In this document: positions 1,891 through 18,516 of the stretch, piece by piece | Numbering within the stretch: the first letter of the stretch is position 1 | Layout of the letters: each line of letters opens with the position of its first letter | Origin: Cytophagaceae bacterium | GTDB lineage: Bacteria; Bacteroidota; Bacteroidia; Cytophagales; Spirosomataceae | DNA: 46,746 nt | Reading direction: 5' to 3' | Assembly (NCBI GenBank): GCA_024642485.1 | Contig: JAHEAY010000007.1 | Span: forward strand, 1-46,746 | The notes under the pieces: generated by a model | What the model was told of the DNA's origin: nothing | The model's input: the letters and a program-made list of their open reading frames with translations, nothing else | Database searches by the model: none | Translations under genes and position numbers: made by a program

Positions 1891-1924
1891 ACCTTTGGCA
1901 ATCCTCCTCAGGTTTGCCAAAGGT
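1891..1924 (-). repeat. Stem-loop repeat, copy 1 (reverse orientation)
   Basis: Arms ACCTTTGGCAA and TTGCCAAAGGT, 11 bp perfect, then a T.T mismatch, a CCT/AGG inner stem and loop CCTC. It is the left end of composite module 1 and lies 44 bp upstream of the radical SAM start codon. Confidence 0.9.
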
Positions 1925-2016
1925 AGTTCGCTGGACTTTGCTTTCGATTAAACCAACTGATAAAAATTATCAACAAGCTGATTTTTTTGACCTTAGTATT
2001 TTCCCCTGAAAAAACT

Positions 2017-2050
2017 ACCTTTGGCAAACCTGGGGAGGATTGCCAAAGGT
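2017..2050 (+). repeat. Stem-loop repeat, copy 2
   Basis: Arms ACCTTTGGCAA and TTGCCAAAGGT, an A.A mismatch, inner CCT/AGG and loop GGGG. It is the right end of module 1, 51 bp upstream of the hydrolase ATG at 2102. Confidence 0.9.
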
Positions 2051-2101
2051 TAAGAGGGAGGTACCTGATTTTTGTATATTTCTAAAATAAAACCTATCAC
2101 G

Positions 2102-3112
2102 ATGAAAAAAATATTCCTTCTATTCGCTAGTCTTTGGCTATTACAATCTTGTGGAATAAAAGAAACGAGCGTTTCCTCGTACTTCAATTATGGAGACAGT
2201 CTCGAATCCGCAGGTGTCCGGATGATCCCCATTCAAACACCGAAGGGAACGTTCAAGGTTTGGACAAAACGATTTGGCAATAATCCCAAAATCAAAATCT
2301 TATTGCTCCATGGCGGTCCTGCCATGACGCATGAATACATGGAATGTTTCGAGACCTTTTTCCAACGAGAGGGTTTTGAGTTTTATGAATATGACCAATT
2401 GGGGTCTTATTATAGCGACCAGCCGAAGGATACGACTTTATGGACCAACGAGCGTTTTGTCGAAGAAGTCGAGCAAGTTCGCAAGGCAATCGGGGCGGAT
2501 GCATCTAATTTCTACATTATAGGAAATTCTTGGGGTGGCATTTTAGGGATGGAATATGCGCTGAAATACCAGAAAAATCTGAAAGGTTTGTTGATTTCCA
2601 ACATGGTCGCTAGCGCACCCGAATATGGAAAATACGCGGATGAGGTTTTGGCCAAACAAATGGATCCACAAATTTTAAAAGAAATCCGTGCAATTGAGGC
2701 CAAAAAGGATTTTGCCAATCCCCGCTACATGGAATTGCTAATTCCGAATTTTTACCATGAACATATTTGTCGTTTACAGGAATGGCCAGATGCCCTAAAT
2801 CGCTCCTTGAAACACGCAAACGGGGTCATCTATACACAAATGCAAGGCCCAAGTGAATTTGGTATTGGAGGTTCTTTGGCAACATGGAACATCAAAAACC
2901 GCTTGAAAGAAATCTCCGTTCCTACCTTGATGATTGGAGGAAAATATGACACCATGGATCCAAAAGCCATGGAGGAACAAAGTAAAATGGTTCAAAAAGG
3001 CTCCTATTTATATTGTCCAAACGGAAGTCACCTTTCCATGTGGGATGACCAAAAGGTCTACATGAAAGGGGTTATCGATTTCATCCACAAAGTGGATGAG
3101 GGCGCCAATTAA
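2102..3112 (+). CDS. Proline iminopeptidase-like alpha/beta hydrolase lipoprotein
   Basis: A 336-residue alpha/beta hydrolase of the proline iminopeptidase (S33) type. The oxyanion motif HGGP is at residues 70-73 and the nucleophile elbow GNSWGG puts the catalytic serine at 143. A likely acid lies in GGKYDTMDP and the histidine in NGSHLSMW. The lipobox LQSC (Cys17) after a hydrophobic stretch indicates a membrane-anchored lipoprotein. Family members release N-terminal proline or other residues from short peptides; the substrate here is not known. I start at the ATG at 2102 because it begins the signal peptide; an in-frame ATG at 2072 would put ten extra residues before it. The gene is tail to tail with the metalloprotease gene, with 2 bp between the stop codons. 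Confidence 0.85.
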   Translation: MKKIFLLFASLWLLQSCGIKETSVSSYFNYGDSLESAGVRMIPIQTPKGTFKVWTKRFGNNPKIKILLLHGGPAMTHEYMECFETFFQREGFEFYEYDQLGSYYSDQPKDTTLWTNERFVEEVEQVRKAIGADASNFYIIGNSWGGILGMEYALKYQKNLKGLLISNMVASAPEYGKYADEVLAKQMDPQILKEIRAIEAKKDFANPRYMELLIPNFYHEHICRLQEWPDALNRSLKHANGVIYTQMQGPSEFGIGGSLATWNIKNRLKEISVPTLMIGGKYDTMDPKAMEEQSKMVQKGSYLYCPNGSHLSMWDDQKVYMKGVIDFIHKVDEGAN

Positions 3113-3114
3113 AA

Positions 3115-5493
3115 TCAATCCAAGCAGTCCATCCCAATAGGTGCCCCATCTGGAATATTGGGCGTTTGCATCGGTTTCCAATCGTTCGGATTCGCCTTAA
3201 ATTGGTCAATCGTCTGAACGATGTATTTTGCCATGGCGGTTGGTTTAAGGCTATAATTTGCCCGAATCTTCTGTACTGATGCTTGCACCTGCGCCGCCGC
3301 TAGGGGAGAAATGCTAGGTGCATTCAATGCGTTCAATAAGGCCGAAACGACTTTAAAATTGATGGTTTCTTGCGTGGCATGCAGATAAGAATCTGTATGT
3401 GATTTATTAATCGTTGCTTGCATCAGCCTATCCAAAGTTTCTTCCACGCCCAATTGTTTCGAATCTACAGATTTGTTTCCAGCCAAGCGGGATAGTCGAT
3501 CCGGATGCAATAAAAAGTCTAAGGTGAAATCAGCTGCCGACTCCACCGCTCCCATGGGATCAAAAGTGATGCCCGTTTTCCCTTTGAATGATTCACGCGT
3601 CCGATCGTAATTGAAGGCGCGCGGTGGGAATAATGCGAGTTTGTCCTTTGGTATGGCGAGGGTTTGTGCATCCAAGGTAGTTGTCAGCGCTTGCAATGCA
3701 TCGAGCTGTAAAGCAAGAGGTGCTGGCGACAAGACCAGCTCTTTTCCGCCCCGCACGGCATAGTTATATTCCGAACCTCCGATGATTTTGGAAACCGCCT
3801 CCGTTTGGTAACGATGTAAGAAATACAAGGGAACAAATACATCCTCCAAATGCGAATACGCTTCATTGGGGCGAATATTGTTTACTGAAAAGTTCGCAAT
3901 GGCTTGTTGGCGAACCTTCAAAATCTTCTGTAACTCATCCACAATGGTTGTTCCATTGTCCCAAAGGTGGGCATAAATGTGCGCGCCACCCGGATTTCTT
4001 GCGTCCGCGTCCGTAATGAAACGCATTCCTTTTTCGTAAGCATTGTCCAATACTTGATTCAGCGCTGCCTGGGTTTTATGTTCTCCATAGGCATAATCGA
4101 CCGAAACCTTATCCCAATCCCCTATTTTCGTATCATAGGCATGGCTGAAATCCATTTGATTGTTTTTGAACTCGATTTGCGGATGAGGGTAATCCATCAC
4201 ACTGCTATTGTTGCGCGCACTCGCCGCATAATTATGGGCAAATCCGAGCGTATGGCCGATTTCATGTGCAGCTAATTGTCGAATTCTTGCCAAAGCCATC
4301 GCCATCATCGGACCATTGTTGGATCCATCCACGGCAAATGGGGCATTCATCAAGGCTTGGGCAATTAAGAAATCTTGGCGAATGCGAAGACTACCTAAGC
4401 TCACATGGCCTTTCATGATTTCTCCCGTACGCGGGTCGGCGATGCTCGCACCATACGACCAGCCGCGTGTCGAGCGATGTACCCATTGAATGACATGGTA
4501 GCGCACGTCCATGGGATCTGCATCTTCCGGTAATAATTTGATTTGAAAGGCATCTTTGTATCCGATGGCTTCGAATGCTTGGTTCCACCAGCGGCCTCCC
4601 TCCATCAGCGCAGAACGGATGGGTTCAGGGGTACCATTGTCCAAATAGTAAATGATGGGTTTGACTGCTTCACTCACAGCGGCTTTTGGGTCTTTTTTCT
4701 CCAAACGATGCCGCGTAATCCACTTTTTTTCAATCACTTCTTGAACCGGCGAAGCATAATCTTGAAAGGTGATCGCATTAGCCCCAGAACGTGGGTCAAA
4801 AAGGCGAGGTTGATAATTGTTGTCGGGAAGTTCAATGAACGAATGGTGTTCCACCACGGTCACATTATCGGCATTCGGAGCCACAGAACGTATTTCGGAT
4901 CCCGTTCCATTGCCAGCAAAGGTTAGTCGCGCTTCGAATTCCGTGTTTTTGGGAAACGATTTGGTTCGTTCTAATGCTAAAGAGCTTTTTGATTTATCTA
5001 GGCTATAAGTACCTTGTTTCGCTTGCGCTAAGCGTTTCAAAACTCCATGCGCATCTTGCATCAGGAAGTCCGTTAAATCGATAAAATAGGATCCATTGCG
5101 GGTATATTCGATTTTAAAACCAAACAAGACCGATTTCGCGAAAGCTTGTTGGACCGATAATTTTTCCAACGCATTCGTCGTATTCGCTCGGTAACGCGTG
5201 TTAGGCTGAACGAGGAAAATTTTATTTCCCTGCTTCTCGAAAAACACAACTTGCTCATTACCTAATTGGCCGCGGTCTAAGCCGAGGTCATTATTCCCTA
5301 CGCCCTGGGCGAGTGAATAGGCATACAAAAATTCCTCGTTGAGTTTGTTGACTTCGAGGTAGATTTTGTCGGCAGTATCATCGTAATAAAAATTGAAATA
5401 GCCCGGATGGGCTTTCATGGACTGGATTTTATCGGCGATTTGTGCTTGCGCACCTAGACTTAAAAGGACAAAAAGAAGGACTAATTTTTTCAT
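3115..5493 (-). CDS. Secreted zinc-dependent metalloprotease (DUF5117/DUF4953 type)
   Basis: A 792-residue protein with a signal peptide ending near AQAQ (residues 15-18). Residues 410-420 read HEIGHTLGFAH, the HExxHxxGxxH zinc site of metzincins. The N-terminal half (GYFNFYYDDTADKIYLEVN and the following region) and the overall length match the DUF5117/DUF4953 proteases that are common in Bacteroidota. The protein probably acts in the periplasm or outside the cell; its substrate is unknown. The gene is divergent from the PIG-L gene, with 80 bp between start codons, and convergent with the iminopeptidase-like gene. I see no frameshift or missing zinc ligand. Confidence 0.9.
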   Translation of the reverse strand: MKKLVLLFVLLSLGAQAQIADKIQSMKAHPGYFNFYYDDTADKIYLEVNKLNEEFLYAYSLAQGVGNNDLGLDRGQLGNEQVVFFEKQGNKIFLVQPNTRYRANTTNALEKLSVQQAFAKSVLFGFKIEYTRNGSYFIDLTDFLMQDAHGVLKRLAQAKQGTYSLDKSKSSLALERTKSFPKNTEFEARLTFAGNGTGSEIRSVAPNADNVTVVEHHSFIELPDNNYQPRLFDPRSGANAITFQDYASPVQEVIEKKWITRHRLEKKDPKAAVSEAVKPIIYYLDNGTPEPIRSALMEGGRWWNQAFEAIGYKDAFQIKLLPEDADPMDVRYHVIQWVHRSTRGWSYGASIADPRTGEIMKGHVSLGSLRIRQDFLIAQALMNAPFAVDGSNNGPMMAMALARIRQLAAHEIGHTLGFAHNYAASARNNSSVMDYPHPQIEFKNNQMDFSHAYDTKIGDWDKVSVDYAYGEHKTQAALNQVLDNAYEKGMRFITDADARNPGGAHIYAHLWDNGTTIVDELQKILKVRQQAIANFSVNNIRPNEAYSHLEDVFVPLYFLHRYQTEAVSKIIGGSEYNYAVRGGKELVLSPAPLALQLDALQALTTTLDAQTLAIPKDKLALFPPRAFNYDRTRESFKGKTGITFDPMGAVESAADFTLDFLLHPDRLSRLAGNKSVDSKQLGVEETLDRLMQATINKSHTDSYLHATQETINFKVVSALLNALNAPSISPLAAAQVQASVQKIRANYSLKPTAMAKYIVQTIDQFKANPNDWKPMQTPNIPDGAPIGMDCLD

Positions 5494-5523
5494 TTTCGTT
5501 TGTTGTTACTCCGGATAGACCGG

Positions 5524-5554
5524 TTTGATTTCTTGGCCAATTTGTCTATCATTG
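5524..5554 (+). promoter_or_regulatory. Putative Bacteroidota promoter for the PIG-L operon
   Basis: TTTG at 5524-5527, a 19-nt spacer and TATCATTG at 5547-5554. This matches the -33 TTTG / -7 TAnnTTTG consensus with one mismatch. The predicted start of transcription leaves a short leader before the ATG at 5574. Confidence 0.5.
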
Positions 5555-5573
5555 GCATGTAATTTCTAAACTT

Positions 5574-6434
5574 ATGAAAAATATTCTATTGTTGCTTCTT
5601 TTGGCGTTTACGAGTGTAGGCCAAACGAAACCTTTGCGAATCATTTTTATTGGTGCGCACCCAGATGATTGTGATATTAAAGGCGGAGGAACGGCTGCCT
5701 TATTTGTGGAAATGGGGCATCAAGTTAAATTTCTTTCCGTCACCAATGGGGATGCCGGTCATCAAACGCAGGGAGGCGGGATGCTTGCTAAACGGCGCAT
5801 CGCGGAAACGCGCGAAGTGGCGAAGCGTTTAGGCGTTTCCTACGATGTTTTGGATAATCATGATGGCGAATTGTTACCTACCTTGGAAATTCGCTTACAA
5901 ATCATTCGAAAAATTCGGGAATGGAAAGCGGATGTCGTGATTGCGCCTAGGTCAAATGATTACCACCCGGATCATCGTTATACGGGAATATTGGTTCAAG
6001 ATGCTGCGTTTATGGTGGGTGTTCCCAATGTCGCTCCGGATGTAGAACCGCTCCGCAAAAACCCGGTATTTCTCTATTATCAAGATAATTTCAAGAAACC
6101 CAATCCCTTCCAACCCGACATCGCCGTGGATATCACGCCGGTGATTGCTAAGAAGTTGGCCGGCCTCGATGCCCATCAATCGCAGTTTTATGAGTGGTTG
6201 CCTTGGATCGGGAATTATGAATCCGAGGTGCCCAAGGATCCAGCTAAATACAAAGATTGGTTATTGCAAAAACGTGTGTTGAAACCCAATCCCGAAGTAC
6301 AAAAGAGCCTCGTCAAATGGTATGGGGAAACGCGTGCTGCCAAAGCGCTCTATGCGGAAGCCTTTGAAATCTGTGAATATGGCACACAGCCAAGTGAAGC
6401 GGAAATTCGGAACTTGTTTCCCATGTTGAAATAA
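5574..6434 (+). CDS. PIG-L family deacetylase, exported
   Basis: A 286-residue LmbE/PIG-L protein. After a signal peptide (residues 1-17) comes the zinc motif AHPDD at 28-32, and the second metal-binding motif HPDH lies near residue 130. The family hydrolyses N-acetyl groups from N-acetylglucosamine-type sugars and conjugates. It is the first gene of a tight run: DUF1080 follows after 11 bp and the oxidoreductase overlaps that gene by 4 bp, so the three are probably co-transcribed and work on a sugar derivative in the periplasm. The exact substrate is not visible in the sequence. Confidence 0.9.
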   Translation: MKNILLLLLLAFTSVGQTKPLRIIFIGAHPDDCDIKGGGTAALFVEMGHQVKFLSVTNGDAGHQTQGGGMLAKRRIAETREVAKRLGVSYDVLDNHDGELLPTLEIRLQIIRKIREWKADVVIAPRSNDYHPDHRYTGILVQDAAFMVGVPNVAPDVEPLRKNPVFLYYQDNFKKPNPFQPDIAVDITPVIAKKLAGLDAHQSQFYEWLPWIGNYESEVPKDPAKYKDWLLQKRVLKPNPEVQKSLVKWYGETRAAKALYAEAFEICEYGTQPSEAEIRNLFPMLK

Positions 6435-6445
6435 ATCAGATACAA

Positions 6446-7093
6446 ATGAAAAATACCCTATTATTCGTTGCGCTTCTGTTGACATTTAGCTTGAATGCTC
6501 AAAACTGGAAACCACTTTTCAACGGCAAAGATTTGACCGGTTGGAAGCACGTAGGCGGCGGCTCCCGTTTCGTTGAGAATGGCTTGCTCGCTAGCAAAGG
6601 TGGCATGGGGCTCTTGTATTGGACTGGCGGAAAACTGGGCAATTGCCAAATCAAAGTCGTCTACAAAATGCAGAAATTCAATAGCAATGCCGGCATTTTT
6701 GTGAAAGTTCCTATCGAGCCCAAAGAGGAATGGATGCCCGTATTCTATGGCTATGAAGTACAAATCGATAACCACCCAGAAACCTCCGGCGAAGATGAAT
6801 ATCACATCAGTGGGACACTTTATGCTTTTACCAAACCCAAAAGCAAACCCGGGAAACCAGGTCCCGAGTGGAATACCATGTTGATCACCTTAGACGGTCC
6901 GCGGACGATTGTGCACCTCAACGATGAACTCGTGACGGATTACCGAGAAGGGGAACCTGTGCCGGCAAGGAAATTTGATTTTGAACCTTACCCAGGACGC
7001 CGACCGGATTCCGGGTATTTTGGCTTGCAAAATCATGGAGATGAAGATGTCGTGTATTTCAAAGAAGTTTCCGTTAGACCCCTCAAAAAATGA
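6446..7093 (+). CDS. DUF1080 (3-keto-disaccharide hydrolase-type) protein
   Basis: A 215-residue exported protein with a cleavable signal peptide (residues 1-18). It opens with the DUF1080 signature NWKPLFNGKDLTGWKHVGGG and has the concanavalin-like beta-sandwich pattern, ending in GYFGLQNHGDEDVVYFKEV. DUF1080 members have been linked to cleavage of 3-keto-glycosides. The very next gene is a Gfo/Idh/MocA oxidoreductase, the class that makes 3-keto sugars, so a linked oxidise-then-cleave role is likely but inferred. Its TGA overlaps the next ATG (ATGA at 7090-7093), which suggests translational coupling. Confidence 0.9.
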   Translation: MKNTLLFVALLLTFSLNAQNWKPLFNGKDLTGWKHVGGGSRFVENGLLASKGGMGLLYWTGGKLGNCQIKVVYKMQKFNSNAGIFVKVPIEPKEEWMPVFYGYEVQIDNHPETSGEDEYHISGTLYAFTKPKSKPGKPGPEWNTMLITLDGPRTIVHLNDELVTDYREGEPVPARKFDFEPYPGRRPDSGYFGLQNHGDEDVVYFKEVSVRPLKK

Positions 7094-8580
7094 AGCGTTC
7101 CGAATTTATCAAGAAAAGCACCTTAGCTTCAGCGGGGTTTTTTATCGTGCCCCGACATGTCTTAGGGGGTAAAGGTTTTGTCGCACCCAGTGATAAATTG
7201 GTCATCGCGGCGATTGGTTGTGGAGGTGAGGGGGATAATGATATCCAACATTTGGCTAAAACACCCAATAACAATTCGACCATCGGTTTTCTATGCGATG
7301 TGGATCAGCGTCAAGCCGCTCCGAAAAGAAAGCAATTTCCGAAGGCCAAATTTTACGAAGATTGGCGGGAATTGTTCGACAAAGAAGGTCAGCATTTTGA
7401 TGCGGTAACCGTTGCCATTCCAGATCATAATCATGCTTTAGTGGGTCTGCGCGCGATGCAGATGAAAAAGCATTTGTATTTGCAGAAGCCTTTGACCCAT
7501 GACATTCATGAGGCTCGAATCATTACGCAGGCGGCTTCGAAATACAAAGTCGTTACCCAAATGGGAGACCAAGGTGCTTCTTGTGAGGGCTTGCAAACGA
7601 TGCGCGAATGGATCGAAGCGGATTTGATTGGCGAGATTTCCAAAGTCTATTGCTGGACCGATCGTCCCGTTTGGCCACAAGGTATTGCCTGGCCGAAAAC
7701 CCCGAGTCGAATTCCGAAAGAACTGAACTGGGATTTATGGTTGGGGACCGCCCCCAAAACCAATTACATCGAGAACCTCGTACCCTTCAATTGGCGCGGT
7801 TGGTGGGAATTTGGTACGGGAGCACTTGGAGACATGGGTTGCCACATCATGGGGCCACCGTTTAAATTATTGAATTTGGGCTATCCGCATGAGGTGTCGG
7901 GGAGTGCTTCGACAACCTACAGCGGGGTCTTTAAGGAATCGGCCTATCCGGAAAGCGGACCCATTTCGAGTTCCTTGAAATATCGGTTTACGATGAACAA
8001 TGGCAAGGATTTGGATTTGTATTGGATGGATGGTGGCATTACTCCGGAGCGTTTGCAGGCTTTGGCGCCCGATGTGAATATGAATGATGCGCTTGGTGAT
8101 TATCCGGGGGAAAATGATTTTGAGGGTTCTACATTATTTGTGGGGACCAAAGGGGTGATAGCCTGTGGTTGGGGTGGTTCGCATCCGCGCCTGTTTTCGA
8201 AGGAATTGCAAGAGGCGGCCCAACATATCCCACAAAAATATGCCCGCGTGAAAGGTGGGATGGATGGCCATTGGTGGCAGTGGATTGATGCGAGTATTGC
8301 AGGCTATGGCAACATGGAGGTGAGTTCTCCTTTTGAGGGCTATGGCGGACCGTTGACCGAAACCGTGTTATTAGGTAATTTATTGTTGAGGAGTTTTAAT
8401 ATTCGAGAGAAGGTTAAAAAGATGGATCCCGTTTACGGAGCCATGGAAGGTTATGCCTATAGCGGAAGGTACAAGGCACTGAAATGGGATGGTGCAAATA
8501 TGCGTGTGACCAATTACGAACCAGCGAATCAGTTTTTACGTAGAACTTATCGAAAAGGCTGGGGGGATTTGGTGCTTTAA
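7090..8580 (+). CDS. Gfo/Idh/MocA family oxidoreductase, exported
   Basis: A 496-residue NAD(P)-dependent oxidoreductase. The N-terminus (KRSEFIKKSTLASAG) looks like a twin-arginine-type leader, though the arginine pair is a KR. The Rossmann motif is IAAIGCGGEGD. The usual EKP signature reads QKP (residues 132-134): the lysine remains but the glutamate is glutamine. GALGDMGCHIM is the conserved substrate-side motif. It is the third gene of the PIG-L/DUF1080 run, with a 4-bp overlap upstream. It ends tail to tail with the MFS gene, where the two stop codons share TTAA. The substrate is probably a sugar or cyclitol. Confidence 0.9.
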   Translation: MKRSEFIKKSTLASAGFFIVPRHVLGGKGFVAPSDKLVIAAIGCGGEGDNDIQHLAKTPNNNSTIGFLCDVDQRQAAPKRKQFPKAKFYEDWRELFDKEGQHFDAVTVAIPDHNHALVGLRAMQMKKHLYLQKPLTHDIHEARIITQAASKYKVVTQMGDQGASCEGLQTMREWIEADLIGEISKVYCWTDRPVWPQGIAWPKTPSRIPKELNWDLWLGTAPKTNYIENLVPFNWRGWWEFGTGALGDMGCHIMGPPFKLLNLGYPHEVSGSASTTYSGVFKESAYPESGPISSSLKYRFTMNNGKDLDLYWMDGGITPERLQALAPDVNMNDALGDYPGENDFEGSTLFVGTKGVIACGWGGSHPRLFSKELQEAAQHIPQKYARVKGGMDGHWWQWIDASIAGYGNMEVSSPFEGYGGPLTETVLLGNLLLRSFNIREKVKKMDPVYGAMEGYAYSGRYKALKWDGANMRVTNYEPANQFLRRTYRKGWGDLVL

Positions 8581-9749
8581 TCGAAGATACGCTTATTGGA
8601 TATCAAAGGTTTGGCCCAAAAACCAATACTGAAAATATAGCCCATGCTCAGAAACAGGATACTCATGCCTGTTTTTAGGCCAAAAATATCGCCAATTCCA
8701 CCGACGATGAAGGGGAAAATGGCGCCACCCACGATGCCGGTAACGATGATGCCGGCGAAGGATCCATGGTGTTCGGTGACAGAATTTAAGGCCAACGAAA
8801 AAATGATGGGGTACATGACGGATGCGAAAAAGCCAACGAGCGGGAAGGCGATTAAGGCCGCATCTGCGTTTCCGTATAAGCCAAAAGCCAAGGCAATCAT
8901 CGCTAAAAATGTAAAGGTTATCAGGATAATTCGGCTATCCAATAATTTCAATAAGACGATCCCTAAGACTCCTCCGGCCGTCATCAGTCCCCAATAATAA
9001 GCGATGGTGTTCGCGCCATCTGTTTGTGGATTGAGGCCATGGTAGGTTTGTAAAAATTGCGATATCCATGTCGCAATCCCTTGTTCGGTTCCTACATAAC
9101 AGAGCATGGCGATGAAATATAAAATGACTTGTTTGTTATTGAATAGTTCCAGATGAATGGCGATAGCGCCAGGTTTTTCCTCTTCCGATAATTTCACTTG
9201 GGGAAAATGGGTGCTCTGGGTTATGAGCATCATGATGACTGAGATTCCAATAAAAAGGATGTATAGACTTAGCCAAGGTAAATGTATACCAATGAAAAAT
9301 TGATAGACCAAAGGGCTTAAAAACGACGCAAAACCAAAGATCAATTGGGCCCAAACTGAGTAATTCGCATAATTTTCCTCACCTCCAGCGGTTCTTAGTA
9401 AAGGATTAATGACCACTTGCAACATGGCCATGCCGCTACCAATCAGGAATAAGGATAAGAGGGCTGTTACGTAATGTGGCGATAAAACAATAAGTAGTGA
9501 CCCTAGGGTTGCTAGAAAAAAAGCCATCATCATCACTTTCTTCTCATGGAATGTTTCAAGCAAAATTCCCGCCGGAATGGATGTAAAACCATAGGCAATA
9601 AAAAACGCGAAGGGTAGGAGAGAAACTAAGGTAAGACTCAAGTGAAAGGTTCGAATCAAGTCGGGGATAATAGGCCCAATGATGTTCGAAATGAATGAAA
9701 TGACGAAGAAGGTCAATAAGATGACTGAGACGAGTTTTGTGTTTTTCAT
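8577..9749 (-). CDS. MFS sugar-type transporter
   Basis: A 390-residue integral membrane protein with about 12 hydrophobic segments and no signal peptide. The pattern, including the helix with GSGMAMLQVVINPLLR, resembles FucP-type sugar/H+ symporters. Placed beside the PIG-L/DUF1080/oxidoreductase operon, it may import the sugar product, though it is on the opposite strand and separately expressed. Its ATG lies only 6 bp from a stem-loop repeat (9756-9791), so that hairpin would sit in its 5' leader and could affect translation. An efflux role cannot be ruled out. Confidence 0.82.
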   Translation of the reverse strand: MKNTKLVSVILLTFFVISFISNIIGPIIPDLIRTFHLSLTLVSLLPFAFFIAYGFTSIPAGILLETFHEKKVMMMAFFLATLGSLLIVLSPHYVTALLSLFLIGSGMAMLQVVINPLLRTAGGEENYANYSVWAQLIFGFASFLSPLVYQFFIGIHLPWLSLYILFIGISVIMMLITQSTHFPQVKLSEEEKPGAIAIHLELFNNKQVILYFIAMLCYVGTEQGIATWISQFLQTYHGLNPQTDGANTIAYYWGLMTAGGVLGIVLLKLLDSRIILITFTFLAMIALAFGLYGNADAALIAFPLVGFFASVMYPIIFSLALNSVTEHHGSFAGIIVTGIVGGAIFPFIVGGIGDIFGLKTGMSILFLSMGYIFSIGFWAKPLISNKRIFD

Positions 9750-9755
9750 ATCCTT

Positions 9756-9791
9756 ACCTTTGGCAATCCTCCAACCAGGTTTGCCAAAGGT
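9756..9791 (-). repeat. Stem-loop repeat, copy 3 (reverse orientation)
   Basis: Arms ACCTTTGGCAA and TTGCCAAAGGT, T.T mismatch, CCT/AGG, loop CCAACC. It is the left end of module 2 and is identical over 36 nt to copy 4. It sits directly upstream of the MFS start codon. Confidence 0.9.
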
Positions 9792-9824
9792 ACAGGGGTA
9801 TTTTGATTTTTGATGGGTGCCAAC

Positions 9825-9839
9825 TGATAATTATTATCA
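9825..9839. promoter_or_regulatory. Exact 7-1-7 Fur-family box inside module 2
   Basis: TGATAATTATTATCA matches the known Fur/PerR/Zur box TGATAATnATTATCA at every position. It lies 75 bp upstream of the MFS start and about 190 bp upstream of the siderophore receptor. It is also part of a repeated element, so it may be structural rather than an operator. Confidence 0.4.
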
Positions 9840-9889
9840 AGAATCTGATTGTTTGGTTTCTAAGCCTAATTTTTTGATTCCGCAAAGCT

Positions 9890-9925
9890 ACCTTTGGCAA
9901 TCCTCCAACCAGGTTTGCCAAAGGT
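9890..9925 (-). repeat. Stem-loop repeat, copy 4 (reverse orientation)
   Basis: Identical to copy 3 (arms ACCTTTGGCAA/TTGCCAAAGGT, loop CCAACC). Right end of module 2, ending 12 bp before the first receptor operator. Confidence 0.9.
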
Positions 9926-9937
9926 AAGAGCTTTAGC

Positions 9938-9960
9938 TTATTTAAAATAATTCTAAATAA
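9938..9960. promoter_or_regulatory. Palindromic operator 1 of the siderophore receptor
   Basis: A 23-bp near-perfect palindrome with TTATTTA and TAAATAA arms; only two symmetric pairs break across the centre. The outer arms extend to AGCTTATTTA/TAAATAAGCT (9935-9963). It abuts the -33 box at 9963. A second copy matching at 19 of 23 bases starts exactly 60 bp downstream. The position before a siderophore receptor suggests an iron regulator such as Fur. Confidence 0.65.
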
Positions 9961-9962
9961 GC

Positions 9963-9993
9963 TTGCATTTGTAATTCGTTGCATGTAGTTTTG
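9963..9993 (+). promoter_or_regulatory. Putative promoter of the siderophore receptor
   Basis: TTG at 9963-9965, a 20-nt spacer and TAGTTTTG at 9986-9993, a perfect TAnnTTTG -7 box. Transcription would start near 10000, inside operator 2, leaving about 30 nt of leader. Confidence 0.6.
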
Positions 9994-9997
9994 GTCA

Positions 9998-10020
9998 TTA
10001 TTTATAATTAGTCTAAACAA
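9998..10020. promoter_or_regulatory. Palindromic operator 2 of the siderophore receptor
   Basis: Begins TTATTTATAATTAG and ends TCTAAACAA; 19 of 23 positions match operator 1, at a spacing of exactly 60 bp. It covers the predicted transcription start, the usual site for a repressor. Confidence 0.6.
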
Positions 10021-10030
10021 ATATAAGTAT

Positions 10031-12361
10031 ATGATCCGCCTAATAATTCTTTTAATTTTTTCGTTCACAGTGGTTTATGGTCAGCAGGCCTCTTTGGAAG
10101 GTGTTGTTCGAGATGCGAAACAGCAAGTTGTGCCAGGTGTTTCTATTCGTCTAATTGAGTTGAAACGCGGAAAGCCATCGGATGCTGAAGGAAAATTCAC
10201 TTTTCAAGGCTTGAAGCCGGGTATGTATAACTTGCAAGCTTCTTTTGTAGGTTATAAAACCTTGCAAGAAAAAGTAAATCTGGTTGCAGATAAAACTCTT
10301 CATTTGGACTTGGAATTGGTTGAAGCCAGCAATGATTTGAAAGAAATTGTTGTCGTAGGCTATGTGAGTCAAAACGAGAAGCCAATTACCATCGGAAAAT
10401 TGCCTATCAAACCCATGGATTTGCCACAAAGTGTCGTGACGCTGGATAAAAGTTTGTTGGAGGCCCAGCAGGTCAACCGGATGAGTGATGTTTTAATGAA
10501 TACGAATGGCGTTTATATTTTTGGTGCAACGGGTGGCTATCAAGAGGAAATTGCTGCGCGTGGTTTTTCGATGGCGAGCTCAAATACCTTCAAGAATGGA
10601 ATGCGCTATGCGAACGGAATGATTTCGGAACTGAGTGGGGTGGAGAAGGTGGAGATTTTGAAAGGTAGTGCCGCGATTTTGTATGGCAATGTGGCTGCTG
10701 GTGGGGTGCTGAATTTGGTGACCAAGAAACCTAAATTCAATTTCGGTGGTGAATTAAGTCTTCGTACGGGTTCATGGGGGATGTACAAACCTTCGGTCGA
10801 CGTATATGGTGGACTTTCCAAAAACATCGCCGTCCGCTTAAATGCGAGTGCCGAGCAGGCCAAAAGTTTCCGTGTAGGGGTTTCCTCAGAACGCGTATAT
10901 GTGAATCCGTCGATCTTGTTCAAGCTTGGTAAAAAGACCGAATTGATTTTAGAAGGAGATTATTTGGCCGACCAAAGAACGCCTGATTTCGGTGCTGGAA
11001 TCATTAATTATCAAATTGTTGATATTCCCCGGGAACGATTTTTAGGCGTATATTGGTCGAATATTAAATCTTCTCAAAGTTCTGTTACGACTACTTTGAC
11101 ACAACAAATCAATGAAAATTGGACACTAAAATGGATGAATGGCTGGCGCCAAAATGCCAGTAATCTTTTCTCCAACACGCGTCCGAATGCTGGTACCTTA
11201 ATCTCTGCAAACGGCCAATGGATTCGAAATTTACAGAAATCTGAGGTAGAGGAAAGCTATGGAATAACCCAATTGGATTTAATTGGCTCTTTGAATTTGG
11301 CCGGGATGAAACATCAAGTATTAGTAGGGCTAGATTCGGATTTTTATAACACGGATACCTATGCTTATAATCAGTTTAATCGCTACGATACGGTCAACGT
11401 ATATATTAATGCGTTGAAGTCAGCACGTAGTGACCAACCGGCTATGATACCTTTTACGAAAACCATGGCCCCGATTCGCCGCTTGGGTATATATGCACAG
11501 GATTTGATACATCTCAATGAGCAGTGGAAGGTTTTGGCGGGAATTCGGTATTCATACCAACAAACTTTGAGTGATGTTTATGCCTATGCGACTGGCCAAA
11601 CTGCATCGACGTCTAATTTTGATGGGGCATTTTCACCTCGTTTGGGAATCGTATATAAACCTTCGTTGGATCATGCTTTGTTTGCCAGTTATTCGAATTC
11701 TTTTGCTTTGAATACGGGAGTTGACATCAATAACCAGGCCTTACCTCCCTCGTTGATCGATCAATACGAAATGGGGGTTAAGAATGACATTTGGGATGGT
11801 TTATTTTCGGTAAATGTTACTGCGTATCGGATTTTGAATAATAATTTGGCCCAAAATTCTTTGGTCAATGCCACGACCTATTCCTATGTCAAAGAAATGG
11901 CGGGTTCTGTGCAAAGTGAGGGGATTGAATTGGATGTGATGTCAAAACCCATGGCAGGTTTTACGATATCAGGTGGATATAGTTTCAATGAAACGAAATA
12001 TGTCAAAAGTAATACCTATATCGAAGGAAGCTTATTAAAATACAACCCGCGGCATACTGCAAATTTAAGCGTTCAATATCGACATCAAGGCTTTCAATTA
12101 GGATTGACGTCGGTGTATATCGGCGAACGGTTTGCGGGGCGGTCGACGCGTGTGCTGGTGGCGAATGATGCCTACCGACTCATTGCGCTTCCAGCTTATG
12201 TGCAAGCAGATTTAACAGCGGGCTATACGTTCAAGAAAATGTCCTTGCGGGCTCGCGTGGCGAATTTGGGAGATGTGTTGAGCTACAATGTTCACGATGA
12301 TAATTCCGTGAATCCCATTGCCCCTCGGAATTATAGTTTGACCCTGACCTATGGGTGGTAA
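10031..12361 (+). CDS. TonB-dependent siderophore receptor
   Basis: A 776-residue outer-membrane receptor. After the signal peptide (to about residue 17) there is a carboxypeptidase-D-like regulatory domain (about 20-100, GVVRDAKQQVVPGVSIRL), then the plug (about 125-240, with DLPQSVVTLD and VEKVEILKGSAAILYG, as in siderophore receptors), then a 22-strand-type barrel ending in an aromatic-rich segment (YSLTLTYGW). It takes up ferric siderophores with energy from TonB-ExbBD, which are not in this window. Two matching operators flank its promoter, so iron-dependent repression is likely. A stem-loop repeat lies 11 bp after the stop codon. Confidence 0.92.
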   Translation: MIRLIILLIFSFTVVYGQQASLEGVVRDAKQQVVPGVSIRLIELKRGKPSDAEGKFTFQGLKPGMYNLQASFVGYKTLQEKVNLVADKTLHLDLELVEASNDLKEIVVVGYVSQNEKPITIGKLPIKPMDLPQSVVTLDKSLLEAQQVNRMSDVLMNTNGVYIFGATGGYQEEIAARGFSMASSNTFKNGMRYANGMISELSGVEKVEILKGSAAILYGNVAAGGVLNLVTKKPKFNFGGELSLRTGSWGMYKPSVDVYGGLSKNIAVRLNASAEQAKSFRVGVSSERVYVNPSILFKLGKKTELILEGDYLADQRTPDFGAGIINYQIVDIPRERFLGVYWSNIKSSQSSVTTTLTQQINENWTLKWMNGWRQNASNLFSNTRPNAGTLISANGQWIRNLQKSEVEESYGITQLDLIGSLNLAGMKHQVLVGLDSDFYNTDTYAYNQFNRYDTVNVYINALKSARSDQPAMIPFTKTMAPIRRLGIYAQDLIHLNEQWKVLAGIRYSYQQTLSDVYAYATGQTASTSNFDGAFSPRLGIVYKPSLDHALFASYSNSFALNTGVDINNQALPPSLIDQYEMGVKNDIWDGLFSVNVTAYRILNNNLAQNSLVNATTYSYVKEMAGSVQSEGIELDVMSKPMAGFTISGGYSFNETKYVKSNTYIEGSLLKYNPRHTANLSVQYRHQGFQLGLTSVYIGERFAGRSTRVLVANDAYRLIALPAYVQADLTAGYTFKKMSLRARVANLGDVLSYNVHDDNSVNPIAPRNYSLTLTYGW

Positions 12362-12372
12362 TACCCCATCTT

Positions 12373-12408
12373 ACCTTTGGCAAACCTGGTTTGAGGATTG
12401 CCAAAGGT
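12373..12408 (+). repeat. Stem-loop repeat, copy 5
   Basis: Arms ACCTTTGGCAA/TTGCCAAAGGT, A.A mismatch, CCT/AGG, loop GGTTTG. It fills the 56-bp gap between two convergent stop codons. It has no T-run, so it would be a weak terminator at best. Confidence 0.88.
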
Positions 12409-12417
12409 AAGTGCGGG

Positions 12418-13737
12418 TTATTTTACGATACTTCCCCAAGCTAAATGGCGGAATTTTTCATTGAATCGCGTGGGTTCAGGTGCAATTTGTAGGAAAACCA
12501 TTCCAATCATGTCTTCTTTCCGATCTACCCAATATTGTGTACCAAAATATCCTTTCCAGAAATAAGTTCCTGCAGAGATCGTCTCGAATTTGGCCTGTTC
12601 CTCAGGATAAACATAAACGGTTACACCAGCTTTGAACTGTGATCTGCCCGTAACGCCTTTGGCAACTCCATCATTCGTCGACACATCGAATAAAGGTTTC
12701 TCAATCATCTCAACCGTTTTCTTGCTCAAAATGCGTGCGCCATCTAATTCTCCGTAGTTCAGGATCATTTGGAAGAAACGAGCATAATCGTCCACATTGC
12801 TAACAATGTCCGTTCCACCCATGGCCAAGGGGGTATTCGTGTTCTTGTAGTAGTCCATCGACATGTCTGCCGAGAATCCTAAAAGCCGCTTTCCTACTTC
12901 ATCTGTATAGACCGACTTTTTCCCCGACCTATCTTGAGTATATACCTGAGTCATGTTTTTCCACTCGTTTGGCGTAACACCTACAAACGTTCTTGTCATT
13001 TTTAAGGGCGTAAAGATTTCTTGACGAAGGAAGTCGGCAAAGGTGCGGCCATCTAGTACCTCAATTACTCGACCTAATACTTCGAGATTCATTCCATAGG
13101 TCCAGCTCTCACCGGGTTCGTGAACAAGCGGCAATTTTGCGGTGCTGCGAATGATTTCTGCGAGTGTTAGTTTTGTATCGCCCTTAGGAAACGCGATTGT
13201 AACGCCAGCATTTAAATAACCTTCTCGGCCCAGACTTGAGAAGGGTGGGTAGGCAATGCCCGAAGTATGTGTAAACACGTGCTTCATCAAGATTTTGTTT
13301 TTCGCTGGACGTGTGATGAATTGGTGTTTCAAGGTATCGTATCCGACCAAAATTTGCATGTTGGCAAATTCTGGCAAAATCGTTTCCAAAGGCGTATCCA
13401 TTGTGAATAGTCCTCTTTCGAATATTTTAAGTCCTGCAACGCCGGTAATAATTTTGGTCATACTCGCCATCCGGAAAAGGTGGTCGGTGCGCATCGCTTC
13501 ACCCGTTTCGAGGTTCGCTTTACCAAAAGCTTTTTTGTAAGCAATTTTCCCATGTCGGACGATCATACCGATCGACCCAGGAATGTGTTGGTTTTCTGAT
13601 TCTTTTGCCAAAAAGGCATCTACGCGTGCTAGTCCTTCTTTCGATAAACCGAGTTGTACGGGGTCGCCTCCAGGTAGATTTTGAGCAAGGCTGCCAAAGG
13701 AAATAAGGGCAACGAAAAGGAGTAAAGTGTGTTTCAT
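12418..13737 (-). CDS. Exported serine hydrolase, beta-lactamase class C family
   Basis: A 439-residue protein with a signal peptide (residues 1-18). The SxxK nucleophile motif is S92-M-T-K95 within FRMASMTKI. HTSGIAYP and the tyrosine-containing YGMNLEVLG follow, as in the beta-lactamase/DD-peptidase/esterase family (PF00144). It acts in the periplasm, and could be an esterase, a D-aminopeptidase or a peptidoglycan hydrolase. Nothing points to drug resistance in particular. It is convergent with the siderophore receptor; the gap holds stem-loop copy 5. A further stem-loop (13813-13845) lies 75 bp upstream. Confidence 0.88.
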   Translation of the reverse strand: MKHTLLLFVALISFGSLAQNLPGGDPVQLGLSKEGLARVDAFLAKESENQHIPGSIGMIVRHGKIAYKKAFGKANLETGEAMRTDHLFRMASMTKIITGVAGLKIFERGLFTMDTPLETILPEFANMQILVGYDTLKHQFITRPAKNKILMKHVFTHTSGIAYPPFSSLGREGYLNAGVTIAFPKGDTKLTLAEIIRSTAKLPLVHEPGESWTYGMNLEVLGRVIEVLDGRTFADFLRQEIFTPLKMTRTFVGVTPNEWKNMTQVYTQDRSGKKSVYTDEVGKRLLGFSADMSMDYYKNTNTPLAMGGTDIVSNVDDYARFFQMILNYGELDGARILSKKTVEMIEKPLFDVSTNDGVAKGVTGRSQFKAGVTVYVYPEEQAKFETISAGTYFWKGYFGTQYWVDRKEDMIGMVFLQIAPEPTRFNEKFRHLAWGSIVK

Positions 13738-13812
13738 CGGATGGAGTAATTTGTGTTAATCAAGATACTGATAATATAACAAAAGGAGGACTCGTTATCC
13801 TCCTTTCCCCGT

Positions 13813-13845
13813 ACCTTTGGCAAACCTTGGAGGATTGCCAAAGGT
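13813..13845 (+). repeat. Stem-loop repeat, copy 6
   Basis: Arms ACCTTTGGCAA/TTGCCAAAGGT, A.A mismatch, CCT/AGG, loop TGG. It lies 22 bp beyond the stop of the NTF2-like gene at 13868 and 75 bp before the serine hydrolase start. TGATAAT occurs at 13769-13775, but not at the spacing seen in the modules. Confidence 0.88.
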
Positions 13846-13867
13846 AAAGGAGGGGGTAAAAATAGAA

Positions 13868-14368
13868 TTATTGCATGATTTCGTTAATCTTCTTCGTATC
13901 ATAACGCAACCACTCAACCACCTGCTTGCCATCTTTAATGCCATCAACCGAGTGAATAATTACTCTGACCGATTTGTCTCCACGCGTCAAGGTAAACCAA
14001 GCATATGCGTAAACAAAATGATTCGCGCCGAAATATCCTGGTTCGTTATAAATCGTTTCCGTGATATTCGGGATGGAATCCAACTTCATCGTAATTCCTT
14101 TCGCTTTGAAAGCGGTGAACAAGGAAACGTTTTGGTCTAAAGTAATTGTATCTGCGTTGTCATAAAAGACCGCATCTTCCGAATAGGTAGCACGATAAGT
14201 TGCTGAATCCCCATCGCTTAAGGCTTGCATCGATTTCTTGGCTAAATCGATGTTGGCCGACTTGTCTATTACATAACCTACAGCACCTTCTGGTAACTTA
14301 CTTTCTTGTTTCGAACAAGACATCATTCCGCCTGCGATGACGCAAGCAATGGCTAATATTTTTTTCAT
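13868..14368 (-). CDS. NTF2-like (SnoaL-fold) lipoprotein
   Basis: A 166-residue protein. A hydrophobic leader ends in MMSCSK, a lipobox with the cysteine at residue 18. The rest fits the NTF2/SnoaL cone fold: SANIDLAKKSMQALSDGDSATYRATYSEDAVFYDNADT is the typical opening helix and first strand, here seen in pieces. No catalytic residues can be assigned, and proteins of this type are often unassigned or bind small ligands. A terminator (14382-14408) separates it from the upstream gene on the same strand, so it is probably expressed alone. It belongs to a group of four small exported proteins. Confidence 0.8.
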   Translation of the reverse strand: MKKILAIACVIAGGMMSCSKQESKLPEGAVGYVIDKSANIDLAKKSMQALSDGDSATYRATYSEDAVFYDNADTITLDQNVSLFTAFKAKGITMKLDSIPNITETIYNEPGYFGANHFVYAYAWFTLTRGDKSVRVIIHSVDGIKDGKQVVEWLRYDTKKINEIMQ

Positions 14369-14381
14369 GATCCGTTGGGTT

Positions 14382-14408
14382 AAAAAAAAGGCCGACTTGT
14401 GCCGGCCT
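14382..14408 (-). terminator. Intrinsic terminator after the 14491-15213 gene
   Basis: Read on the minus strand, the stem GGCCG/CGGCC (14403-14407 with 14390-14394) is extended by one A-T pair and followed by a run of eight T. A smaller hairpin (CGTATT/AATACG, 14442-14458) lies between it and the gene's stop codon. Confidence 0.8.
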
Positions 14409-14490
14409 GGAAAATTTAGAACTAGTTAAATGTACCCACAGCGTATTGCAATAATACGGATTGGTTGATGCTACGTAAATCCCCTACTTT

Positions 14491-15213
14491 TTAAGTGAAT
14501 TGCTCGGGACTTAAGTTCATGTATTTCTTTGCACCATTGATGTAGATGCTGCTTGAATCGAAATCCAGTTTAGAAAGATCCTTGAAGAATGTAACGGTTG
14601 TGAATTGGCCAGAACCTTCATAAGAGATAGGTGCCAAATGTTGCCAAAACGACCATTCTTGGATATTACCAGCCTTGATGCGGTCTAATTGGATAGCCTT
14701 TACTTGTTTTTCGAAATCCAAATAAGCAAAATAGTTTTGCTGCGTTACTTGCATCGTTTCCATCAAGATAATCGAGTTCAAATCATTCGAAGGACCTGTA
14801 GCCTCTAATACCTTTGTCAATTTGTTTCGAACAATCGATTGAACCTTTAACGTTTCATCCATTAAGGAATAAAAACTTGGATCTTCTTTCATCAAGGCTG
14901 TTCTCATAGCTTCTGGGTATTGCGTAAGCTTGTTTAGGTCCTCAGATGCATTTAGGGATACATAATCATAATCCACAGATTCAGATTTGTATTCATTCAT
15001 AATTGGATAAACAGCCCAGGCGCCAATGAGTCCTGCTGCCTTACGTTTCAAATGAATAACTTTCCATTTCTTTTCGAGCGCCATCGCTTCTTCAATCGTG
15101 TGGCCCGGCTTTAATTTGTGGAAAGCGATATTGATGTAAATCGGTTTGTTTTGTGCGAATGTGCTTGCTGTGATTGCAAAAATTGCAAGGAATAATAAGG
15201 TAAGTTTTTTCAT
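14491..15213 (-). CDS. Exported protein of unknown function, possibly two A/B-barrel domains
   Basis: A 240-residue protein with a clear signal peptide (KKLTLLFLAIFAITASTFAQ). Two segments, about residues 23-125 and 140-235, each begin with a beta strand ending in a helix of charged residues (YINIAFHKLKPGHTIEEA and NYFAYLDFEKQVKAI), suggesting a duplicated dimeric alpha/beta barrel like antibiotic biosynthesis monooxygenases or NIPSNAP proteins. That assignment is tentative. It lies between two NTF2-like genes on the same strand, each followed by its own terminator. The function is unknown. Confidence 0.75.
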   Translation of the reverse strand: MKKLTLLFLAIFAITASTFAQNKPIYINIAFHKLKPGHTIEEAMALEKKWKVIHLKRKAAGLIGAWAVYPIMNEYKSESVDYDYVSLNASEDLNKLTQYPEAMRTALMKEDPSFYSLMDETLKVQSIVRNKLTKVLEATGPSNDLNSIILMETMQVTQQNYFAYLDFEKQVKAIQLDRIKAGNIQEWSFWQHLAPISYEGSGQFTTVTFFKDLSKLDFDSSSIYINGAKKYMNLSPEQFT

Positions 15214-15236
15214 GGTTTTTTGGGTTTAAAAATATT

Positions 15237-15261
15237 GTCCGTGAGCGATATGCCCACGGAC
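15237..15261 (-). terminator. Hairpin terminator after the 15271-16182 gene
   Basis: Stem GTCCGTG/CACGGAC with an 11-nt loop; on the minus strand it is followed by AATATTTTT. The T-run is interrupted, so efficiency may be moderate. Confidence 0.6.
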
Positions 15262-15270
15262 TTAATCAAT

Positions 15271-16182
15271 TTAATTTTTTGTTTTTTCTCTAGAGAATTG
15301 CTTAACTGAATCTATTTTTCCAGCCAAATTGAAACCGAAAAGTTCTACTAGATTTTTATCCCAAATTTTACCATCTTTCATGACGCGTTTTTCATTTGAG
15401 AATACGATAATTCCGGAAGCCGGATCGGTGTCTTTTACTTTGAACGGAAGGATAAATCCAGGTTTCCAATCCAAAGATTGAAATTCAGCGAACAAGGCTG
15501 GAAGCATATTTTTGGTGAATGTGAATTTGTTTCCGTCGAAATCCTCAAATTGAACTTCATCTGCCAAAATAGCCTCAACCGCTTTCACATCCATCGCATT
15601 ATAGGCTTTTGCAAAATTTTCAATTGTTTCAATTTCACCTCGGTTGCTGAATTGAAGAGTGCGACCTGCTGGATCAGCCCCAGGCTTGTAAGAGATTAAT
15701 TTTCCGCCATAGGTCTTTCCATATTCATTGCTCGCTGGAATGGAATGGTATTGGGTAAATCCGGCGATTTTCCCCGACTTATCCACTTGGAACAATTCGA
15801 ATAAATTCAAATTTTGCTTTGAGCCATTTTTGAATATGCGCTCCTCGGTAGATTGCAATAGGACAACTTCTGTTTTTTGACCCTCAGCATATAAGGGAAG
15901 AATTGCCATAGGCTTGTTTACGACGGATTGATATTCCGCATGTCCTTTTTGATTCGCTTCTGCGTATTTCTTGATCATTTCATCAGACCACAAGGCAGTC
16001 TCAGCAGCAGAGTTGTTTGCATTGTAAGCTTTGACAGCTTCCAAAACAACATTGCTACTTTTTTCTGAACCAAATTTGAATGATTTACCTTGACTGTCGC
16101 CAACAAATATTTTGCCAGCTGTTTGCGCTTTTACGAAGAATGCAGAGGCTACTAATGCCCCTAATAGAACTAGTTTTTTCAT
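15271..16182 (-). CDS. Exported protein with two NTF2-like domains
   Basis: A 303-residue protein with a signal peptide (residues 1-19). Two similar halves begin with EAVKAYNANNSAAETALWSD (about residue 48) and NFAKAYNAMDVKAVEAILAD (about residue 190). Both continue to a WDKNLVELF or FKNGSKQNLNLFELF-type strand, so the gene appears to be an internal duplication of an NTF2/SnoaL fold. No active-site residues can be named. It is divergent from the SnoaL-like lipoprotein gene at 16357. The shared intergenic region carries an inverted pair of TTTGTACCC/GGGTACAAA motifs that could be a common operator. Confidence 0.8.
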   Translation of the reverse strand: MKKLVLLGALVASAFFVKAQTAGKIFVGDSQGKSFKFGSEKSSNVVLEAVKAYNANNSAAETALWSDEMIKKYAEANQKGHAEYQSVVNKPMAILPLYAEGQKTEVVLLQSTEERIFKNGSKQNLNLFELFQVDKSGKIAGFTQYHSIPASNEYGKTYGGKLISYKPGADPAGRTLQFSNRGEIETIENFAKAYNAMDVKAVEAILADEVQFEDFDGNKFTFTKNMLPALFAEFQSLDWKPGFILPFKVKDTDPASGIIVFSNEKRVMKDGKIWDKNLVELFGFNLAGKIDSVKQFSREKTKN

Positions 16183-16256
16183 GTGTTTTTTGATTATTAA
16201 TTAATGAAAGCAAGAACGAAAGTTTGATTCCCTTATCGAATAATATCAATGGGCAA

Positions 16257-16341: not shown

Positions 16342-16356
16342 CCAAACATATCAAAT

Positions 16357-16842: not shown

Positions 16843-16864
16843 TTTTAGATGAAGTAGGTAGTAC

Positions 16865-18074: not shown

Positions 18075-18129
18075 ATGAACTAGTTAATTAACGAAAGATA
18101 ATCAAAACGAATTAAATTCTCCACCCCTT

Positions 18130-18162: not shown

Positions 18163-18211
18163 AGTGGGAATAGAATTATTTTTAATTGACAAAACTGATA
18201 ATTTCGCATAA

Positions 18212-18499: not shown

Positions 18500-18516
18500 G
18501 GGAAAATCGATTTGCT

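Follow-up and report, generated by a model that had tools for sequence, protein, structure and literature searches.

RIP/RIB-type BIME-1 elements consist of two REPs around an IHF site and span about 110-160 bp. RAYT/REPIN pairs are transposases that have become domesticated and continue to maintain a population of repeats. In the available part of PMC6006769, each known RAYT is described with its own repeat family, and TnpAREP subclass 2.6 (RAYT group 5) as a mostly Bacteroidetes group with flanking repeat structures that are devoid of GT[AG]G and have copies elsewhere in the genome. The available part of PMC8049555 presents known RAYTs as single-copy, vertically inherited genes that replicate REPINs at very low rates, with fewer REPINs in E. 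coli where the RAYT is missing. We describe here, in an uncultured Cytophagaceae-type bacterium, modules of paired hairpins that very probably belong to a divergent RAYT system as its non-autonomous, REPIN-like elements (REP doublets). A limited literature set, surveyed by title and beginning of abstract, contained nothing on these repeats in this group.

Paired hairpins in the window

The window is the whole 46,746-nucleotide stretch analysed here, contig C228 of a 2.54-Mb metagenome-assembled genome (MAG; G000, 238 contigs, 89% complete); incompleteness of the MAGs may depress counts and conceal genes. An earlier note on this stretch had delimited three modules (1891-2050, 9756-9925 and 20347-20510), each with two hairpins that enclose CCAACTGATA, 28 nt past the first of them, and a central dyad. 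The 28-nt spacing was reproduced in all three, with first hairpins ending at 1924, 9791 and 20379 and CCAACTGATA starting at 1953, 9820 and 20408. The 98-nt interiors of modules 2 and 3 (that of module 1 has 92 nt) and the central dyads TGATAA-N3-TTATCA (modules 1 and 2) and AACTGA-N9-TCAGTT (module 3) were likewise as described, and three single hairpins absent from that description were added:

1891-1924, no strand: left hairpin of module 1, ACCTTTGGCAA T CCT CCTC AGG T TTGCCAAAGGT
1953-1963, plus strand: CCAACTGATAA of module 1, 28 nt past the left hairpin; counterpart of nCTGATAA at the RAYT-element 3' end
1967-1983, no strand: central palindrome of module 1, TTATCAACAAGCTGATT; corresponds to the subterminal palindrome that precedes RAYT genes
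2017-2050, no strand: right hairpin of module 1
9756-9791, no strand: left hairpin of module 2, 6 nt before the start codon of an MFS gene (8577-9749, minus strand)
9820-9830, plus strand: CCAACTGATAA of module 2
9834-9850, no strand: central palindrome of module 2, TTATCAAGAATCTGATT
9890-9925, no strand: right hairpin of module 2
12373-12408, no strand: single hairpin where a TonB receptor gene and a beta-lactamase-like gene converge; the related genome G035 has a full module here
13813-13845, no strand: single hairpin
18130-18162, no strand: single hairpin of a half module
18193-18201, plus strand: AACTGATAA of that half module, at standard spacing from its hairpin
20347-20379, no strand: left hairpin of module 3, with a compensatory outer pair (AGC...GCT replaces ACC...GGT)
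20408-20417, plus strand: CCAACTGATA of module 3
20425-20438, no strand: central palindrome of module 3, TCAGTTAATTGATA
20478-20510, no strand: right hairpin of module 3

All nine window hairpins are located between long ORFs: module 1 between divergent radical SAM and alpha/beta hydrolase genes, module 2 between divergent MFS and TonB receptor genes, and module 3 between RodA/FtsW and L,D-transpeptidase genes that run in the same direction. The 20-kb part from 1891 to 20510 carries 9 of the 52 exact TTTGGCAA hairpins of the genome (50 of which have listed places) and the remaining 26 kb none; the orthologous regions of G023 and G035 likewise carry several. In these two relatives the start of the MFS gene (window 9749-9791) is also adjoined by a hairpin, and at the 170-bp MFS/TonB site of module 2 they have two hairpins enclosing two genes (L191:1435-4805 and L221:995-4377). 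Close to the contig end, window positions 45320-46645 hold a 441-aa ORF with long internal repeats (ALKENLANKAVAANLGASAPSDVLYPSQKAVKTY...).

Each module hairpin is made of an 11-12 bp lower stem (ACCTTTGGCAA/TTGCCAAAGGT), one A.A or T.T mismatch, an upper stem of three pairs and a loop of 3-6 nt. Folded as single-stranded DNA, the six module hairpins reached -13.4 to -14.3 kcal/mol (z -5.6 to -7.3), a stability attained in none of 200 shuffles, and the hairpin pattern matched nine times in the window (six module hairpins and three singles, the latter at 12375-12406, 13815-13843 and 18132-18160) and never in 100 shuffles. CCAACTGATA alone, with one mismatch allowed, was not significant, its five window matches being reached in 12 of 100 shuffles. 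Oriented by the asymmetric A.A/T.T mismatch, the REPs of module 1 are inverted and those of modules 2 and 3 are not, the hairpins being nearly symmetric. Among 122 hairpins (overlapping-locus repeats counted once) the commonest feet were CTACC and TTACC; eight of the 122 had 5' GT[AG]G 0-3 nt 5' of TTTGG on either strand, so that the canonical REP foot is not characteristic of these repeats.

We distinguished three stem types, namely type I, TTTG(G/C)CAA (TTTGGCAA/TTTGCCAA), type II, TTTGACAAC, and type III, TTTACTAAC. In 195 flanks starting with G[GC]T[AT], from 123 distinct hairpins of the window's genome, G023 and G035 (overlapping-locus repeats counted once), CTGAT occupied one offset 44 times and the next best offset five times. 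Half modules, searched with a pattern allowing 20-42 nt, were present in 10 of 10 type I genomes, and the distance from TTGCCAAAG to ACTGATAA was exactly 33 nt in 54 of 61 matches (reversed control, 0). The spacers of 40 half modules, the remainder of 83 once near-copies were removed, showed little conservation except for GTA at the start and A-rich positions at the end, and a covarying stem sought in them was not found (best mean z 1.7, a four-pair stem). Recurrence of full modules elsewhere, on which the earlier note had made its reading depend, was confirmed by 19 distinct doublets (overlapping-locus repeats counted once) with inner lengths of 84-105 nt in the loci examined. Twelve of these have AACTGATAA (at least 7 of 9 bases) in the exact half-module register, several others being shifted by one, and in 16 a loose pattern picks up a TATCAAnnnnTTGATA-like palindrome at 35-43 nt from the hairpin at the opposite end. 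A second hairpin context was seen by eye at loci L007, L009, L010, L014, L020, L023, L025, L028 and L039 of the window's genome, with a T-rich foot, then TTTGAGRCGC...GCGYCGATTC or similar, nearby palindromes TAGAGACGCGATACTTCGCGTCTCTA and CCCTAGGCTGAAGCCTAGGG, and the ACTGATAA motif absent.

A divergent RAYT gene between hairpins

The earlier note had suggested looking for a RAYT- or IS200-type transposase with matching ends, and a RAYT was found in the window's own genome (G000:C114:1560-2165), with an adjoining stem one flipped pair off. Searches with PF01797 had been negative in all 11 TTTGGCAA genomes and at first seemed to be evidence against a RAYT; they were negative because these proteins are too divergent for that model. 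The G023 protein is a 202-aa ORF (L192:1810-2418) enclosed by two inverted GAGG-loop hairpins, with the motifs YHIYNRG, NHFH and YIHVNP; that of the window's genome is 71.8% identical to it, and type I RAYTs have 202-203 aa. The catalytic motifs are an HUH of the form NH[FY]H and YIHxNP, and H62, H64 and Y133 are invariant in 26 of 26 homologues, which thus retain the HUH/Tyr signature. NCBIfam REP_Tyr_transpos (NF047646) matched all 26 at E up to 0.001, the RAYT of the window's genome scoring 27 bits and that of G023 30 bits (E 4e-7), both below the curated cut-off of 80 bits. Against Pfam the G023 protein gave no match with E up to 1, and Y1_Tnp misses the RAYTs of this group or matches them weakly, recovering 10 of the 26 homologues with E up to 0.01 (that of the window's genome not among them). 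The predicted fold (mean pLDDT 89.4) had as best PDB match 4er8_A, a RAYT bound to a REP hairpin (rank 1, E 1.7e-7, 12% identity; query TM 0.59, target TM 0.72), so that this Y1 transposase fold is closest to TnpAREP; Thg1-type enzymes also matched, from rank 5 (E 2.4e-4).

A search of the genus returned RAYT homologues in 25 of 38 genomes. In ten of the 11 type I genomes there is a single close copy, an orthologue of 67-100% identity; G012 and G023 have an additional homologue at 34%, and the G011 homologue is 32% identical. Homologues in genomes devoid of TTTGGCAA hairpins reached 54-58% (six genomes) and 49-52% (eight genomes), and more homologues at 32-43% were seen at L253 (G011:C41) and L254-L258. 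When the best homologue of each of the 25 genomes is taken, hairpins flank the gene on both sides in 24, the 25th being truncated by a contig end. In the ten orthologue-bearing type I genomes the gene occupies one chromosomal locus with inverted hairpins on either side, so that one close RAYT copy is flanked by its own repeat type. The adjoining stems are TTTG(G/C)CAA in the type I group, TTTGACAAC in six genomes and TTTACTAAC in eight, and 14 of the 27 genomes without type I hairpins thus have RAYT homologues flanked by one of the latter two. One G025 copy of the flanking stem reads TTTGACAAA, and the G011 homologue is flanked by a different, unrelated GC-rich hairpin, CGCTGCCGGGGTC.

The ends of the RAYT elements were compared with those of the modules at 23 of the 25 loci, leaving out G032 (cut) and G011 (other stem). 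In type I elements the start codon lies 121-126 nt from the 5' hairpin and the stop codon 21-24 nt ahead of the 3' hairpin. All ten type I elements have the palindrome TATCAAnnnnTTGATA, or a near variant, 41-43 nt past the 5' hairpin, its form in G035 and the window's genome being TACCAAnnnnTTGGTA. The distance of the palindrome is 41 nt in all seven type III elements and 87-89 nt in all six of type II. CTGATAA occurs in the half-module register (offset 35, inward from the 3' hairpin) in six of the ten type I elements (G000, G003, G019, G026, G035 and G036), where it falls within the final codons of the gene. The remaining four carry a degenerate version, and CTGATAA was found in that 3' register in none of six type II and none of seven type III elements. 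Because it lies inside the RAYT reading frame, this CTGATAA may in part reflect the protein sequence. By these motifs one module end resembles the 5' end of the RAYT element, and the opposite module end the 3' end, which is the expectation for elements that keep both ends without the gene.

Stem types, RAYT lineage and age of the copies

The TTTGGCAA stem pattern was detected in 10 of 59 genomes, all within the 37 of the genus, and in none of the 22 others of the order; G059, added later, also carries it, which makes 11 of 38 genus genomes, and the TTTGCCAA stem is present in the identical set. Type I copies range from 7 to 73 per genome (ten genomes counted). The TTTGACAAC stem was found in six of the 38 genomes and TTTACTAAC in 11, with one reversed-control match (G001), and ten genomes have none of the four stems and no RAYT match. 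Stem-type counts over the 38 genomes form separate blocks, with no genome in two groups. The TTTACTAAC genomes without a RAYT match (G014, G017 and G027) carry 4-6 copies versus 8-22 in the eight that have one, and G011, which has no close RAYT orthologue and a decayed module 3, has seven type I hairpins, the lowest number of the ten genomes counted. A scan of GTDB genomes for the form with a 4-nt loop returned nine stretches, all from Cytophagaceae bacterium MAGs, an undercount because that form alone was tested and one from which near relatives of the window may be excluded; viral contigs gave no match to the stem with loops of 3-6 nt. Within the assembly, contig pairs C20/C93 and C65/C203 have closely similar hairpin surroundings (L005/L022 and L018/L036) and perhaps represent two strains in one bin or duplicated regions.

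Each stem type forms one side of a branch in the RAYT tree (support 99/98, 97/97 and 93/94), and the stem labels require two changes, the minimum, a value as low being reached in 0 of 200 shuffles; the tree comes with a warning of long branches (for G011, and for type III versus type I), and of its 22 inner branches 9 are left open. In a host tree of the RodA gene (30 of 38 genomes), a branch sets apart each of type II, type III and the genomes with none of the stems. The type I rows are divided between two positions and form one side of a branch in 30% of bootstraps, perhaps through mixing of paralogues, G035, G036, G019 and G016 showing second matches. The gene before the RAYT ends in NELTK at 22 of 25 loci (by pattern), and a gene ending in NANQYL or NVNQYL, which we take to be fructose-bisphosphate aldolase, follows it at 16 of 16 loci of types I and II; since these neighbours recur, the RAYT has stayed in place. 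Compared with the window's genome, the G012 RAYT is 84.7% identical and its neighbours 84.5% and 95.6%, and the G023 neighbours are 86.5% and 98.95% identical. These values mostly fit inheritance in place, with the G023 RAYT more divergent than its neighbours suggest, owing either to replacement of the allele or to fast evolution.

TTTGCCAA and TTTGGCAA are one flipped base pair apart. The stem adjoining the RAYT is TTTGCCAA in nine of the ten type I genomes with an orthologue, including the window's, and most dispersed copies are TTTGGCAA; the window's genome has six TTTGCCAA copies, two of them beside the RAYT, versus the 52 dispersed TTTGGCAA hairpins, and in G023 the RAYT is flanked by exact TTTGGCAA stems. 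Because the RAYT-side stem differs from the dispersed one, the window modules may be partly orphaned from their own genome's RAYT.

G035 and G023 each have a full module at the module 3 site, where G011 has a decayed one (surrounding DNA 82%, 77% and 75-81% identical, respectively), and across the window, G035 and G023 the hairpin stems are near-constant while loops, mismatch orientation and spacers vary. Empty sites in related genomes, for which the earlier note had proposed to look, were sought in 792 flank pairs from 254 hairpins with usable flanks (those below 200 nt excluded). The hairpin was present in 726 pairs, and a full one was lacking from 66, none of which showed a precise insertion junction by eye, some of the 66 being flank-end or masked-N artefacts. 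The counts yield no rate, because overlapping loci recur among the pairs (repeats were removed on the query side only) and loci were mostly chosen for their hairpins, a bias towards filled sites. Modules within one genome are not near-identical inside and their closest pairs look like orthologues, so that no recent copying is seen among them. As the search gave no clean empty site, mobility is presumed from the RAYT association. We infer that the present copies are mostly old, inherited in place and rarely active, and the very low REPIN replication rates of known RAYTs would fit such place-keeping copies.

Alternative explanations and comparison with known systems

The REPIN-type reading put forward in the earlier note gained support from a RAYT flanked by the same hairpins (the exact stem in G023, one flipped pair in the own genome), from module ends that resemble the RAYT element ends and from a hairpin type that follows the RAYT lineage over 38 genomes. 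Two close REP hairpins form one unit, and a cognate RAYT, with a stem one pair different, is present in the genome. The alternative that survives best, which is improbable and in any case compatible with REPIN-like elements, holds that the modules are chromosome-architecture sites adopted by the host, like BIME-1 with IHF and whatever their origin, at which a putative nucleoid protein would use the palindromes and a bend site. Their location is kept across species, A/T-rich spacer positions recur about 10 nt apart by eye, and the central ATCAAnnnn(C/T)TG presumably resembles the IHF consensus; protein binding is hypothetical, however, and the same palindrome precedes RAYT genes, which fits a part of the element.

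Much less likely still, the hairpins and modules would be mainly transcription terminators or mRNA stabilisers made alike by homogenisation, with no transposase involved. Several single hairpins do lie a few bases past stop codons or between convergent genes (by eye), but the stems inspected are followed by no clear U-tract (by eye), the genes on either side of modules 1 and 2 diverge, and the fixed spacing to ACTGATAA and the RAYT association would be left unexplained. That the modules are a structured regulatory RNA family, the other possibility raised in the earlier note, is highly improbable, for despite stable hairpins with compensated changes (CC/GG to GC/GC inside the stem, ACC/GGT to AGC/GCT at the foot) there was no Rfam match at the gathering threshold, the spacers of the 40 half modules were neither conserved nor covarying, and the relation to gene direction was not constant by eye (divergent, tandem and convergent contexts). 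Promoter boxes in the spacer and a terminator were also considered, and spacer composition and mixed gene orientation gave them no consistent support; the same applied to a cassette boundary, considered for the two genes between the module 2 hairpins of G023 and G035.

If the modules are REPIN-like elements, the RAYT, an HUH-tyrosine single-strand nuclease, would recognise the hairpins as single-stranded DNA and would have copied or moved the doublets in the past. By analogy with TnpAREP, as described in the available parts of PMC6006769 and PMC8266576, it would bind the hairpin in single-stranded DNA and cleave near its foot, and on the same analogy a doublet with two hairpin ends would be a mobilisable unit. 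The modules would then be both ends of the RAYT element minus the gene, and single hairpins and half modules decayed or collapsed doublets. Gene-less modules retain the palindrome, which suggests a role for it in the element itself, beyond RAYT expression alone.

It is possible, if rather doubtful, that a domesticated, vertically kept RAYT repeatedly switched its hairpin specificity (TTTGGCAA, TTTGCCAA, TTTGACAAC, TTTACTAAC) at one locus while the subterminal signal stayed constant (the TATCAAnnnnTTGATA-like palindrome and, in type I, also the set-distance CTGATAA). In that case recognition would be bipartite, combining a hairpin that varies with a subterminal site that does not, and this pair would take the place that the GTAG guide has in known REPs. 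Every switch would strand a population of orphan repeats, such as the TTTGGCAA copies in the window's genome. One RAYT lineage at one genomic place with three stem types in related species offers a natural series on how enzyme and repeat change together. G023 and its nine type I relatives, which differ by a single flipped pair of the flanking stem (plus the loop) and by a RAYT more divergent than its neighbours, provide matched protein and DNA pairs for a direct comparison of specificity.

The system shares with the REPINs and BIMEs of TnpAREP in E. coli and Pseudomonas the dispersed, intergenic REP-like hairpin doublets, a RAYT flanked by repeats and a separate repeat family for each RAYT (available part of PMC6006769). 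Further shared traits are a RAYT that is single-copy and inherited vertically and lower repeat numbers in genomes that lack it, as seen in E. coli (available part of PMC8049555). It differs from them in the rarity of 5' GT[AG]G, in the internal A.A or T.T stem mismatch, in the subterminal palindrome with ACTGATAA at a set distance and in type I copy numbers of 7-73 per genome. BIME-1 has the same plan of palindrome, spacer, central site, spacer and palindrome, with different sequences. The HUH-Y1 fold is common to IS200/IS605 transposases, whose structures 2a6m, 2f4f and 2vjv rank just under 4er8, whereas type I genomes carry one close RAYT copy at one locus. With subclass 2.6 the system has in common the phylum, flanking repeats without GT[AG]G and the YIHxNP motif. 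As far as the available part of PMC6006769 describes that subclass, its HUH motif is NH[LIV]H where ours is NH[FY]H, LF[EDQ] seems to stand here (aligned by eye) where the paper's table has WQ, and its repeat structures are called weaker, whereas the present hairpins fold well. This comparison of motifs would set the system apart from subclass 2.6, and we file it as a variant of the RAYT/REPIN kind. RAYT/REPIN systems as such are known; the stem types, the rarity of 5' GT[AG]G, the strong mismatch-bearing stems and the subterminal signals are what marks this variant.
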